From IMG/VR virus record IMGVR_UViG_3300025132_000392, positions 1 to 20,606 of that record: a stretch of 20,606 nucleotides of DNA. One strand, written 5' to 3'. Positions 815 through 8,762 of the stretch are shown here, piece after piece. The translations under genes were made by a program, and so were the position numbers. The DNA is from a virus. Under the pieces are notes generated by a model. That model was not told the origin of the DNA and did not search any database. It saw only the letters and a program-made list of their open reading frames with translations. Each line of letters starts with the position of its first letter. The first letter of the stretch is position 1.

Positions 815-1567
815 CTACCAAAGACGTAAATCTTTTGTCCCTGGCTGATTATTTCTGTTATAAATATCTTCAATCATGCGTAAATAGTCCTTATTGTTCC
901 TTTGTTTAGTAAACAACTGAGGAGCTAATTCTACTTTATGTAAGAACTTCTTGTGACTGAAGTCTGGGTGGGTTAATGCTTGTTCAGTATAGGCTTTAAT
1001 AAATGCTCTATGTCTGAACGTGGATTCACTGTGAGGTTTAAAGTCTACTATCTTAGACAATACACTTTCTATATGCTCTAGACTTTGACTAATCTTAAGC
1101 TGTCCTAGTTTAAAGTCTGTGAATACAGCATGAGTGCTATTACCTGTTAATATGGTTATTAATGTGGTTATAGCAAATGGATATCTCTTCACAAATGTCT
1201 GAAATATCTTATATTGCTCATGACCTTGACTAACATAAAAGTTAAGGTAATCAGCGTATCCCCAAGCCTTACCTACTGAATTAAATGAACCAATATCAGT
1301 CTTTTGCATTTCTGTAAACATGTAGTATACAGGTATTTCTAGCTTTTTACAGGCTAATAAAGTATGTTGTCCATCTAATACTTCATAATCTGGACTTACT
1401 TTAATAGGGTTTTCTTTTGTTAAGTTTACACGCATGATTTCATTCATCACGTGGTTTACTTGTTTCATAGTAACTGGTCTGTTACATTCAACCAGCTTGA
1501 ACTGGTCATAATTCATGGTACTTCTAATGGTGTATGATTCTTCAATCTCATTAAATAGTTGTGCCAT
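815..1567 (-). CDS. ParB/Srx-like domain protein
   Basis: The product is 250 aa if started at the ATG at 1567, which has AAGGAG seven bases upstream; an upstream ATG at 1621 would place the promoter inside the gene. Residues 53-83 (IKVSPDYEVLDGQH then a helix and IPVYYM) match the ParB N-terminal motif, in which a GxR/GQH box follows a DG turn and precedes a conserved 'leucine, helix, proline, valine' strand. Residues 129-160 look like a helix-turn-helix segment. Chromosomal and plasmid ParB bind parS and CTP. Phage relatives also serve as nucleases, transcription modulators or antirestriction proteins, and no second ParA gene is visible here. The product probably acts on DNA in the cytoplasm. 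The C-terminal third is unassigned. Confidence 0.7.
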   Translation of the reverse strand: MAQLFNEIEESYTIRSTMNYDQFKLVECNRPVTMKQVNHVMNEIMRVNLTKENPIKVSPDYEVLDGQHTLLACKKLEIPVYYMFTEMQKTDIGSFNSVGKAWGYADYLNFYVSQGHEQYKIFQTFVKRYPFAITTLITILTGNSTHAVFTDFKLGQLKISQSLEHIESVLSKIVDFKPHSESTFRHRAFIKAYTEQALTHPDFSHKKFLHKVELAPQLFTKQRNNKDYLRMIEDIYNRNNQPGTKDLRLW

Positions 1568-1594: not shown

Positions 1595-1621
1595 TTTATA
1601 CATACTATACATAAGTGTCAA
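1595..1621 (-). promoter_or_regulatory. Sigma70-type promoter for the ParB-like gene
   Basis: Reading leftward, a perfect TTGACA (-35, bases 1621-1616) is followed after 15 bases by TATAAA (-10, bases 1600-1595), or after 16 bases by ATAAAT with an upstream TG. Transcription would begin near 1588, about 20 bases before the ATG at 1567, leaving room for the AAGGAG site. The 15-base spacer is shorter than the usual 17. The position supports the shorter start of the gene. Confidence 0.55.
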
Positions 1622-1643
1622 GTTTACTAGATAAAACTATACT
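1615..1643 (+). promoter_or_regulatory. Divergent plus-strand promoter candidate
   Basis: GTGTCA (1615-1620; four of six matches to TTGACA) is separated by exactly 17 bases from TATACT (1638-1643; five of six matches to TATAAT). It overlaps the -35 of the leftward promoter of the ParB-like gene, a back-to-back arrangement. It would drive a plus-strand transcript starting near 1650 that ends at the terminator at 1831-1876. Confidence 0.35.
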
Positions 1644-1649
1644 ACTGTT

Positions 1650-1876
1650 TTAGGTTGCAGAGGCTCACCAGAGCGTATCTTCATACTGTACAAAATAGTT
1701 CTTACTAAACCGTGTCTACGACTGCACACGACATGGGAGCTACCCAAGTATGTCATTTAGCTGATATCAAGAACCCAGTAGTATATTGAGTTAGAACGAT
1801 AGGCGTTCTAGTGGAATAAATAATGAAACTAAGCAGTACTGTCGTAGCGTAGCGAAGACCACTGCTTTGTTTTTTA
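1650..1876 (+). ncRNA. Candidate structured non-coding RNA
   Basis: This stretch has no supportable gene on either strand but carries a promoter-like pair upstream, a terminator at its end and a chain of hairpins. CGTGT/ACACG pairs at 1711-1715/1726-1730. GACAT-GGG/CCC-ATGTC pairs at 1730-1737/1743-1754 with a four-base bulge. TAGAACG/CGTTCTA pairs at 1792-1798/1804-1810. The last hairpin is the terminator. The predicted length is about 225 nt. I do not recognise a known RNA family; it matches neither tmRNA nor 6S RNA by eye. It could be a regulatory RNA acting on the neighbouring ParB-like gene or on the host. Confidence 0.38.
1831..1876 (+). terminator. Intrinsic terminator, plus strand
   Basis: AAGCAGT (1831-1837) pairs with ACTGCTT (1861-1867) around a 23-base loop with further internal pairing (GTC/GAC), followed by TGTTTTTT up to 1875. 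The T tract lies only on the plus-strand side, so it stops rightward transcription, although no rightward protein gene precedes it. Confidence 0.55.
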
Positions 1877-2468: not shown

Positions 2469-2585
2469 TTAAACATTATAAATTCTTACAAAATAGCCTA
2501 GGCAGAGCAGACAGTCTTGTTGCTTTCGTGCATTGCACCAACAACAACGCCTTACTCTACCTATCAAGCTATCCGATATGGACAT
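2469..2585 (-). CDS. Two-CxxC zinc-knuckle mini-protein, 38 aa
   Basis: The ORF starts within the last bases of the preceding gene (17-base overlap) and encodes a basic peptide with CCWC at residues 14-17 and CLLC at residues 25-28, separated by NARKQQD. Two CxxC pairs seven residues apart make a compact zinc-binding knuckle, and the surrounding Arg/Lys would suit nucleic-acid binding. GGAG lies only two bases from the ATG, so initiation may depend on coupling to the upstream gene. No named family can be assigned. Placement in a leftward row of mini-genes supports it being real. Confidence 0.5.
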   Translation of the reverse strand: MSISDSLIGRVRRCCWCNARKQQDCLLCLGYFVRIYNV

Positions 2586-2694
2586 CTCTCCGAATGTCAG
2601 GAGCAATATCCCACTGAGGCTTGCGAGTTCCCCAATGTATGTTGCACATCATATCTAGTGTTATTAACACTGTTTCAACAATAATTCTTAGCAT
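2569..2694 (-). CDS. Hypothetical mini-protein, 41 aa
   Basis: A leftward ORF with its start taken at 2694 because a GAGG lies nine bases before that ATG. An in-frame ATG at 2709 would add five residues but has no ribosome site. The N-terminal half is hydrophobic and helix-like (LRIIVETVLITLDMM); the second half is polar with Trp (WGTRKPQWDIAPDIRRD). No family recognised. It overlaps the two-CxxC gene and follows the 44-aa gene by about 40 bases, consistent with one operon. The N-terminal helix could be a membrane anchor, but it contains Glu and Asp. Confidence 0.5.
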   Translation of the reverse strand: MLRIIVETVLITLDMMCNIHWGTRKPQWDIAPDIRRDVHIG

Positions 2695-2735: not shown

Positions 2736-2870
2736 CTAGGAAGTAGCCTTTTCCCTAGCACGTGCAATCGCTTGCACATACGTAGGGTACTTAACTTTGC
2801 TCACTTCAATAAATGAGCCTAACCAACCTTGGAATACCCAGAACTTATCTGTTTCTAACACCAATCCCAT
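2736..2870 (-). CDS. Hypothetical mini-protein, 44 aa
   Basis: A 44-codon leftward ORF preceded by AAGGAG ten bases before the ATG. The sequence alternates short strands and aromatic residues (FWVFQGWLGSFIEVSKVKYP) and finishes with a basic helix (TYVQAIARAREKA). This looks like a beta-hairpin-plus-helix domain of the kind seen in small phage single-domain proteins. No known family can be named. It is the first gene after the long intergenic hairpin at 2928-2982. Confidence 0.58.
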   Translation of the reverse strand: MGLVLETDKFWVFQGWLGSFIEVSKVKYPTYVQAIARAREKATS

Positions 2871-2927
2871 CTCGTGTTTTCTCCTTATGGTTATATAATT
2901 AGCGTGCTTTTTAATGCACGGATTAAA

Positions 2928-2982
2928 TAGCCTTAGGACTCTACACCCACGAAACGTGGATGCAGAGTCAAGCTCTAAGCTA
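2928..2982 (-). other. Long RNA hairpin between two leftward genes
   Basis: Read leftward, GACTCTGCATCCACG pairs over all 15 positions with CGTGGGTGTAGAGTC around a TTT loop; two of the pairs are G·U. On the other strand these two become A·C mismatches, so the structure is adapted to the leftward transcript. The outer arms TAGCTTAG and CTAAGGCTA add eight more pairs with one bulge. The TAG at the base is the stop of the 108-aa gene. There is no T tract, so an RNA-processing or stability element (for example an RNase III site) is more likely than a terminator. Confidence 0.55.
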
Positions 2983-3306
2983 TTTGGAGCTGAGGGAAGC
3001 CAGAAGGAACGAAGAGTCGTCTATCTTCGGTTCTCTCGCTTGTCCAACAAACCAGTTGCCGTTACTGGTTGCCTTGGACACGAGGTCGCCAGCGAAGTCT
3101 GGGAACACCTGCTTTATGGTGTTAACAGCCTGAGCTTCCTCGGCTTGGCTCTTCACGTAGATTGCTACGTAAGTGGTGTTGTCTACCATGCCACGTATCT
3201 CGTCTTGAGTGAAGTTCTCCTTAGTAAGACGCAGTGCCTTACCCTGTGCATTACTGTTAAGGAGAGCCAAAGCTCCTCTCACAATGCCTTTCAATTGAAT
3301 TTGCAT
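2980..3306 (-). CDS. Hypothetical phage protein, 108 aa
   Basis: A leftward gene with AGGAG six bases before the ATG, the first gene of the accessory arm. The N-terminus is basic and helical (QLKGIVRGALALLN). The centre contains TTYVAIYVKSQAEEAQAVNTI, a strand-helix unit, and the C-terminus is polar and flexible. It appears to be a small soluble alpha/beta protein; I recognise no family. Its stop codon forms part of the long RNA hairpin that follows. The plus-strand ORF over the same bases, starting at 2914, lacks a ribosome site and is a shadow. Confidence 0.68.
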   Translation of the reverse strand: MQIQLKGIVRGALALLNSNAQGKALRLTKENFTQDEIRGMVDNTTYVAIYVKSQAEEAQAVNTIKQVFPDFAGDLVSKATSNGNWFVGQAREPKIDDSSFLLASLSSK

Positions 3307-3354
3307 AATCTTCTCCTATGCTAGTTAATGAAATGTTTCCAATTGTGACAGGGG

Positions 3355-3432
3355 CGCCCGAGGGCATGGACGCTTAGGGTCAACCTTGAAGTTTTTCAAC
3401 GAAAAAGTGACCCTACCATGCCCGAACGGGCG
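3355..3432. repeat. GC-rich nested palindrome upstream of packaging genes
   Basis: Three inverted pairs are nested: CGCCCG (3355-3360) with CGGGCG (3427-3432), GGGCATGG (3362-3369) with CCATGCCC (3416-3423), and TAGGGTCA (3375-3382) with TGACCCTA (3408-3415). Together they give 22 pairs, with a five-base bulge on the left and a 25-base apical loop. The stem is far richer in G and C than its surroundings. It sits in the divergent gap between the two arms, just before the packaging genes. Candidates are a cohesive-end or packaging site, a replication origin, or a protein-binding site. Confidence 0.6.
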
Positions 3433-3471
3433 GGAGTGGTAAGTGTATATATAACCCACGCACACCGCAGA

Positions 3472-3477
3472 TATAAT
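3472..3477 (+). promoter_or_regulatory. Consensus -10 box (TATAAT)
   Basis: A perfect TATAAT lies 55 bases before the ATG at 3532 in the divergent region. No good -35 is found at 16-18 bases; the bases at that distance are ATATAA. It may be a late promoter needing a phage activator, or chance in AT-rich DNA. Confidence 0.3.
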
Positions 3478-3494
3478 TTTCAAGATTTTCCCTG

Positions 3495-3513
3495 TTTGCG
3501 AACCCCACCCCTG
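3495..3513 (+). repeat. TTTGCGAnnCCCC motif, copy 1
   Basis: The first of three dispersed copies of a motif close to TTGCGA(a/c)ACCCCCTA, here TTTGCGAACCCCACCCCTG. It lies about 20 bases before the start of the 57-aa gene. The other copies are at 3712-3727 and 6510-6525. Confidence 0.4.
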
Positions 3514-3531
3514 GATTATGTACTATCGTCT

Positions 3532-6551: not shown

Positions 6552-8762
6552 ATGCCACAAACCATTCATCCAGAAGTACAAAAGTCAGAAGACTTACTCG
6601 AAGATTATACAGCTCAGCGCACCGATTGGGCGACTCAGGCTATGGAAGATGATGAGTTTCGTAATAATTCCCAGTGGACTAAAGACCAAATTAACATATT
6701 AAGGGATAGGGCGCAGTCTCCTGTAGTTGACAATGTTATTCACCCTGCTGTAGAACAAGCAAAGGCATTACTTACAGCAAATAAACCTAAGTTTCAGTCT
6801 ACAGGTAGAGATGACAGCGACACTAAAGTAGGTCGTTTATTTTCAGATATCATGTCTTATATATGGGATAATTCCTCAGGGAGTTCTGAACTTAAGCAAG
6901 TTATAGACGATTATTATGTAAAAGGCATGGGGGTTATGCAAGCTTATGTAGACCCTATGATGGATTTTGGAAGAGGTGAGGTTTGCTTTAAGAGTATAGA
7001 CCCTCTTGATTTATTTATAGACCCTTCTGCTAGAGACACGCATGTTCGTGATGCTAGTAATTTGATTATATCTCGTTTATTTACCGAAGAGCAAATTAAG
7101 ACTTTATACCCTATGGTCATGGAACCTCAAGGAGAAAACGGAGAAACTCTTTTGAGCAACATGACGACTGAAACAAATAATAGATATCCAGTCAGTTCAC
7201 GAGAAAATACGGAGGACCAATCAATCGGTCCTATTATGGACGGCAATGGGAATACCACAAAAACATATCAAGTCTTAGATAGATACGAAAAAGTAAAACT
7301 CCCATTCTGGCATTGTTTAGATACGACTAATGGAAATGAGCTTATCCATGATGATGAGGGCTATCAAGAGTTAATGGAGACTCCAGCTATTATCATGGAA
7401 ACAGCTCAAGGTATTACACATATTACAGATAAGCCTAAAGTTCAAGAACTTATGGCAATTCATGAATCAACAGGTGGTGTATTTCATCAAATGATGGACA
7501 TGCAAACAGGACAACCTAAAATGATGGCAGGTCCTGAACATCCTGAGGCAATTCCTGGTAGTGAAACAAGATTAACAATTATTACAATTCAAGACCTAGT
7601 GGCAAAGGGAATTGTAGTATGCAATAAGGTATTGGTAGACCGCATAAAGAGGGTACTATCAGTTGGTAGGGTTTTGGTTGCTCTTCAAATAATGGACATT
7701 GAGGAGTTTCCTATCGTCACACTAATGAATAGACACAATAGAAATCCATACCCAATTAGTGATGTACGCTTTATCAAACCTATTCAAGAGTACATAAATA
7801 AGATAACCTCTTTGATTATTGCTCATGCAAGTTCATCTACCAACACTAAGCTACTGATACCTCGTGGTTCAATGAACAGGAAACAGCTCGAAGAGGAATG
7901 GTCTAGAGCTGGAACTGGTGTTATAGAGTTTGACCCTGAATTAGGTCAACCAATCGTTGCAGGACCCGTCCCTTTGCCCAACGAATTATATAAAAACAGA
8001 GAAGACGCTAAACAAAGCATATATCATATCCTGGGAATACATCCACTTCAAAGTGGAGACCCTAGTTCGGCTCCTTCTACTTATAAAGGTACTGTAGCTA
8101 TTGATGAATATGCTCAAAGAAGAATCAAGTCAAAATTAGATGACATTGATTCAGCTTTAAATCAAATGGGCAAAGTTATTATAAAGCTTATTCAACAAAC
8201 TTATACCGATGAGAAAGTTATACGCCTTATGAAGCCAGATGGTCAAGTAAGTGAAGTGACTATGAACGGTCCTATTTATGACGATTTTACCAATGAAGTT
8301 ATTGGAAGAATGAATGATGTCACTATGGGTAATTACGATTTAGTAGTGGTAAGTGGTAGTACTCTACCTTCAAATAGATGGGCAAGATTTGATTATTATA
8401 TGAATTTATATGAGAAGGGAATTATAGACCAACAAGAGGTCTTAGAACAAACTGAAGTTGCTGACACTGAAGGTGTATTAAAACGCACCAGTATTATACA
8501 ACAGTTACAACAACAAGTTGAGCAACTTACAGAAGAAAATAAAGAATTAGCTGGCGACCTACAGACCGCTCAAAGAGAATCCACGAGCGATAGGAAGCGA
8601 GTAGAAGTAGAAAAATTCAAAACCAAACTAAATAACTCAGCAAATAAAACGGAACATGCCTCAAGTTTATTTGAAGCAAGGCTGAATGATGAGCTTAGTG
8701 CGGTTAAGAAAGAAAACAGGGAAGTCGAACAAAAACAAAAAAACCCCGTTGCCGTCAGTTAG
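6552..8762 (+). CDS. Portal protein (P22-like size)
   Basis: A 736-aa protein placed between TerL and the scaffold. The portal is the dodecameric ring at one capsid vertex through which DNA enters and leaves. Residues 60-160 carry a portal-type core: DNVIHPAVEQAKALLTANKP, a helix-rich clip region, and CFKSIDPLDLFIDPSARD, where a D-P-x-D/S 'fixed' strand is usual. The C-terminus (about 640-736) is a Gln/Glu/Lys-rich coiled coil, comparable to the long barrel helix of P22 portal (725 aa). The ATG at 6552 has no Shine-Dalgarno, and no in-frame start lies upstream. The family assignment is from position, length and motifs. Confidence 0.82.
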   Translation: MPQTIHPEVQKSEDLLEDYTAQRTDWATQAMEDDEFRNNSQWTKDQINILRDRAQSPVVDNVIHPAVEQAKALLTANKPKFQSTGRDDSDTKVGRLFSDIMSYIWDNSSGSSELKQVIDDYYVKGMGVMQAYVDPMMDFGRGEVCFKSIDPLDLFIDPSARDTHVRDASNLIISRLFTEEQIKTLYPMVMEPQGENGETLLSNMTTETNNRYPVSSRENTEDQSIGPIMDGNGNTTKTYQVLDRYEKVKLPFWHCLDTTNGNELIHDDEGYQELMETPAIIMETAQGITHITDKPKVQELMAIHESTGGVFHQMMDMQTGQPKMMAGPEHPEAIPGSETRLTIITIQDLVAKGIVVCNKVLVDRIKRVLSVGRVLVALQIMDIEEFPIVTLMNRHNRNPYPISDVRFIKPIQEYINKITSLIIAHASSSTNTKLLIPRGSMNRKQLEEEWSRAGTGVIEFDPELGQPIVAGPVPLPNELYKNREDAKQSIYHILGIHPLQSGDPSSAPSTYKGTVAIDEYAQRRIKSKLDDIDSALNQMGKVIIKLIQQTYTDEKVIRLMKPDGQVSEVTMNGPIYDDFTNEVIGRMNDVTMGNYDLVVVSGSTLPSNRWARFDYYMNLYEKGIIDQQEVLEQTEVADTEGVLKRTSIIQQLQQQVEQLTEENKELAGDLQTAQRESTSDRKRVEVEKFKTKLNNSANKTEHASSLFEARLNDELSAVKKENREVEQKQKNPVAVS

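Follow-up and report, generated by a model that had tools for sequence, protein, structure and literature searches.

A conserved, probably structured non-coding element between a ParB-like gene and tRNA-Met in a phage known from a metagenome contig

In the 20,606-base window analysed here, which corresponds to IMG/VR virus record IMGVR_UViG_3300025132_000392 and belongs to a phage known from a metagenome contig, a conserved non-coding element was found at positions 1612-1877 approximately, with a conserved length of about 260 nt. We read it, with slightly more confidence than doubt, as a stand-alone structured RNA of the phage, which would be encoded on the plus strand, measure roughly 230-260 nt, act through its fold and end at a terminator. 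Its conserved, structured and non-coding nature is supported, at the level of sequence comparison, by selection, by three compensated base pairs and by the failure of the open reading frame alternative.

The right side of the window carries packaging, portal, SU10-like capsid and tail genes, and the left side carries small leftward genes. As originally predicted, the genes on either side of the element, one ParB-like and the other for a tRNA, face the opposite way; both were found on the minus strand. The features of this region are as follows.

815-1567, minus: ParB-like gene (phrog_12305, E 4.6e-23)
1593-1621, minus: promoter-like sequence TTGACA-17-TAAATT, 10/12 matches, within the most conserved block
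1615-1643, plus: promoter candidate GTGTCA-17-TATACT of the original prediction, 9/12 matches
1638-1647, plus: 5′ arm of putative helix P0, TATACTACTG, pairing with 1776-1785
1655-1690, plus: variable hairpin region, GCTC/GAGC in the window and GCTTT/AAAGC in L004
1697-1703, plus: 5′ arm of P1, AGTTCTT, pairing with 1769-1775
1705-1709, plus: 5′ arm of P2, CTAAA, pairing with TTTAG at 1756-1760, invariant in three phages
1711-1730, plus: hairpin HP1, stem CGTGT/ACACG with a 10-nt loop
1730-1754, plus: hairpin HP2, GACAT..GGG-AGCTA-CCC..ATGTC
1738-1742, plus: HP2 loop AGCTA, complementary to TAGCT at 1758-1762, invariant and without covariation
1776-1785, plus: 3′ arm of P0, CAGTAGTATA, complementary to 1638-1647
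1792-1810, plus: hairpin HP3, stem TAGAACG/CGTTCTA invariant, loop altered at two positions
1831-1875, plus: intrinsic terminator, 7-bp stem, inner GTC/GAC, T6 tail
1897-1970, minus: tRNA-Met (CAT), convergent with the element

Distribution and conservation of the element

A homologue search with the large terminase as query yielded 80 viral loci, just two of which, L002 (about 111-396) and L004 (about 6697-6962), contained the element. All homologues occupied the same genomic place. Three exact DNA motifs taken from separate parts of the element were found only in L002 and L004 among 2.9 million IMG/VR viral contigs, and no exact-motif match turned up in 84,980 genomes; since these scans, from which records very close to the window may be missing, returned no copies beyond the two, the element appears to be lineage-specific. 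The relatives obtained by ParB-based searches (L088-L092) were all without it. A covariance search with related phages had been proposed along with the original prediction; run on 29 related viral records and 54 loci, and also on ParB-neighbour loci, it brought no further copy; of the three stems named in that prediction, HP2 has one compensated pair and those of HP1 and HP3 are invariant. Matches in GenBank phages were restricted to the tRNA and its surroundings, and searches of Rfam at low thresholds gave chance matches only.

Between the window and L004, fourfold sites in the small terminase, large terminase, portal and scaffold genes were 17-24% different. In the same comparison, the element core (alignment columns 101-283) differed at 13 of 182 sites (7%) and the first 49 columns at a single site (2%), and the terminator showed one difference per 54 columns (2%) between the window and either relative. 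Columns 53-100, corresponding to the variable hairpin, differed at 11 of 23 sites (48%) with large gaps. As divergence elsewhere in the element is lower than at fourfold sites, the element is constrained except for one freely changing hairpin, and by this measure it is under selection.

Predicted fold and possible role

All three hairpins of the original prediction are present. The structure model tested on the three sequences included P0, the variable hairpin, P1, HP1, HP2, the AGCTA/TAGCT contact, HP3 and the terminator, and 97.5% of its cells were paired. Three pairs were changed on both sides, two in the variable hairpin and one in HP2, a number reached by 29 of 500 shuffles; when the partners were slid by 1-3 columns, 0-2 two-sided pair changes were obtained. 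Because the model was built from the same three sequences, this structural support is moderate. Among the 19 variable columns of the core, 15 were unpaired and 4 paired, and two of these 4 constituted one compensated pair. The substitution pattern supports HP1, HP2 and HP3 as moderate evidence: all five substitutions in HP1 fall in the loop, and the compensated pair in HP2 converts GGG/CCC into GGA/TCC in L004. The variable hairpin still folds in spite of its divergence and indels.

P0, P1 and the putative pseudoknot rest on complementarity and invariance. P0, a possible closing helix, consists of 10 perfect pairs in each of the three phages, a length that 13 of 300 shuffles reached; a long alternative form of P0, made of TATACTACTGTTTTAGATGCAG and CTGATATCAAGAACTCAGTAGTATA, competes with P1 in the three sequences. 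The first pair of P1 is broken in the window (A-C). Pairing of P2 is an alternative to the AGCTA/TAGCT contact, which is possibly a pseudoknot. Another contact, CTACGAC/GTCGTAG, would join the HP1 loop to that of the terminator; it was present in the window but broken in both L002 and L004, and was therefore dropped.

In the mechanism proposed, the conserved core (P1, P2, HP1, HP2 and HP3) would work as a folded unit during infection, and its role would be protein binding or that of a decoy. This is thought likelier than antisense pairing, since the exposed HP1 loop varies and the HP1 stem and joining segments are constant. A duplex search of the element against the phage start regions of the window gave nothing beyond shuffled controls. 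This result speaks against a simple antisense role within the contig, and together with the variable HP1 loop it makes a conserved antisense seed less likely. Counted against the structured-RNA reading are the thin covariation afforded by three sequences, an ordinary folding energy (z -0.9, unremarkable on both strands) and a promoter not above chance.

Ends, strand and alternative readings

The terminator has the stem AAGCAGT (1831-1837)/ACTGCTT (1861-1867), followed by T6 at 1870-1875. In our own scan no other plus-strand terminator in the window scored better; when the 700 bases around it were shuffled, 7 of 400 permutations had one at least as good on either strand. In L002 and L004 a second, AT-rich hairpin lies beside the terminator, towards the tRNA, as two convergent units would lead one to expect. 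The terminator claimed for the element is thus present as a sequence signal. The claimed promoter did not fare as well; sequences of the GTGTCA-17-TATACT type were seen 15 times in 4 kb, compared with 13.9 expected in shuffles. Moreover, the TATACT hexamer falls inside the 5′ arm of P0, and the true 5′ end of the RNA may therefore be upstream of the one proposed. Transcription on the plus strand would begin between about 1618 and 1650 and stop at the terminator; a start near 1650, as given by the TATACT box, would drop the 5′ arm of P0, and one near 1618 would keep it.

The plus strand is favoured, mainly by the terminator, rather than proven. In each of the three phages, and likewise in the consensus (-55.3 vs -53.8), the plus strand folded slightly better, and unpaired positions of the plus-strand consensus fold hold more A than U. 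Single-sided changes were divided equally between the strands. Those fitting plus only were in the variable hairpin and the outer HP2 pair, both in L002; those fitting minus only were in P1 of the window and the inner HP2 pair of L004. On the minus strand P2 would gain two G-U pairs; taken together, G-U pairs leave the strand undecided.

All neighbouring genes, as well as the RNAs of relatives, sit on the strand opposite to the one favoured here. It is conceivable, though we regard it as unlikely, that the RNA comes from the minus strand, released from the tRNA-Met transcript. In the relatives, structured RNAs do come immediately after tRNA-Met or a tRNA-like gene, on the same strand as the tRNA; P2 and part of the one-sided changes agree better with minus, and P0 closes the fold on both strands alike. 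However, plus is the strand that suits the T6 tail and the terminator, and no comparable stop was seen on minus; furthermore, in L002 the RNA that follows tRNA-Met forms a domain of its own, which TTAGGAAAG/CTTTCCTAA closes, and the element is located beyond it.

A second reading, to which we give equally little credence, dispenses with a functional RNA and explains the region by a promoter of the ParB-like gene and a two-way terminator between convergent units, the middle being leader or spacer. Conservation is indeed highest exactly at the promoter block and the terminator: block 1593-1655 is almost identical among the window, L002 and L004, and overlaps the minus-strand promoter-like site TTGACA-17-TAAATT, which probably serves the ParB-like gene. 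The folding energy also agrees with this reading. An ordinary two-way intrinsic terminator would likewise be a hairpin with a T tail in such a position, but it fails to explain why the middle, 1697-1810, is conserved too, with the core well below the fourfold sites; in addition, the middle contains a compensated pair and its changes are mostly confined to loops.

A short protein of 25-37 aa starting from GTG 1712 is very improbable, since the frame, ungapped and open in all three phages (VSTTAHDMGATQVCHLADIKN.. in the window; 25 or 37 codons), differs in length among phages and shows no suitably spaced ribosome-binding site; by hand count its 14 variable positions comprise 5 first, 7 second and 2 third codon positions, the opposite of a coding pattern. 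The coding alternative was ruled out on these codon positions, in agreement with the original prediction that the unit has no protein frame.

An accessory locus and its relation to known RNAs

In relatives, the locus is bracketed by a homologue of a 148-aa gene (L004 4724-5170, beyond the left edge of the window) and by a 44-aa gene (window 2736-2870). The size of the bracketed region is approximately 300 bases in L009, 1.8 kb in L014 and L078, and 2.6 kb in the window. The spot between the two genes is an accessory locus of this phage group, rich in structured RNAs; relatives hold different ones there, often downstream of tRNA-Met. Those identified by comparison, together with two further structures in the window, are listed below.

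L029 7105-7500, L020 7112-7552, L032 6676-7075, L078 6562-6960 and L094 5523-5922, minus: ORF-free RNA of about 390-440 nt
L002 430-956, minus; L090 3318-3790, plus; L088 3855-4452, plus; L014 6095-6670, minus: RNA-like regions of about 500 nt
Window 2486-2620, minus: structured block that precedes a 59-aa gene, with seven pairs compensated among three phages
Window 2923-2987: long hairpin, one compensated pair, CCCACG/CGTGG to CCTACG/CGTAG in L004

The RNA of about 390 nt lies on the gene strand, in the bracketed region or a comparable setting, and is closed by GAATTGCA/TGCAATTC. Its covariation is strong, with 35 compensated pairs out of 102 in four sequences and 28 out of 99 in five, and in L078 and L032 it adjoins a tRNA-like gene on the downstream side. 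No Rfam match was obtained for the three copies scanned, those of L029, L032 and L078. It is probably an undescribed large phage RNA. The regions of about 500 nt follow tRNA-Met or occupy the same place in L090/L091, L088/L089, L014 and L002; their mutual similarity is weak, with a CGTGACC-GAAA-GGC-like motif in L002, L090 and L088. That of L002 has a folding z of -2.8 and is cleanly missing from the window and L004, as if excised between short TAAAT repeats.

It is possible, although we hold this only tentatively, that the locus exchanges several unrelated and mostly undescribed structured RNAs beside tRNA-Met in a cassette-like manner, the element, the RNA of about 390 nt (L020/L029/L032/L078/L094) and the RNA of about 500 nt after tRNA-Met (L002/L090) being among them, and that these are functionally comparable to GOLLD and ROOL. 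GOLLD and ROOL are phage-encoded RNAs that often lie close to tRNA genes; GOLLD env-38, whose structure has been solved, comes from a marine metagenome and is situated downstream of tRNA-Met (PMC12286853). The element is likewise phage-encoded and near a tRNA gene. It differs from GOLLD in size, being about 260 nt whereas many GOLLD members exceed 800 nt and have a conserved 3′ region, and from ROOL in being smaller and without an Rfam match. Neither the GOLLD nor the ROOL covariance model of Rfam matched the region 1400-2100, scanned up to E 10, or the whole window at the gathering threshold; no Rfam match to GOLLD or ROOL was found in any of the relatives' RNAs scanned.

The original prediction regarded a stand-alone structured RNA in this place as new. 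Nothing resembling the element was present in Rfam 15, 50,697 phage records or the 84,980 genomes, but non-coding RNAs between phage genes, such as CfrI of cyanophage S-PM2, DicF and c4, are already known (PMC12197685), and the element resembles them in this respect while its sequence matches nothing in Rfam or the phage records. The novelty therefore concerns the sequence and not the kind; the element is real and constrained, and probably acts at the RNA level. Taken alone, it would be one more lineage-specific phage RNA without known relatives. The context points to a locus of marine phages that holds many structured RNAs next to tRNA-Met, a setting like that of GOLLD and ROOL, and a family of smaller, variable RNAs at one syntenic place would ease functional tests of GOLLD/ROOL-like RNAs.

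Three other observations were made in the window. The ParB-like genes of the window (815-1567) and L004 (5899-6654) are only 50% identical in protein, and the non-coding blocks flanking them are 90-98% identical, which suggests gene replacement or fast evolution. The non-coding block at 601-800 has 98% identity to L004 between much more diverged flanking genes; on the minus strand it resembles a tRNA-like fold (AGACCAGAG/CTCTGGTCT), which ARAGORN does not report. Finally, a block at 3300-3520, upstream of the packaging genes, is kept in about 30 relatives and contains a large hairpin and a TATATATAACCCACGC stretch; it may be a leader or a late promoter.
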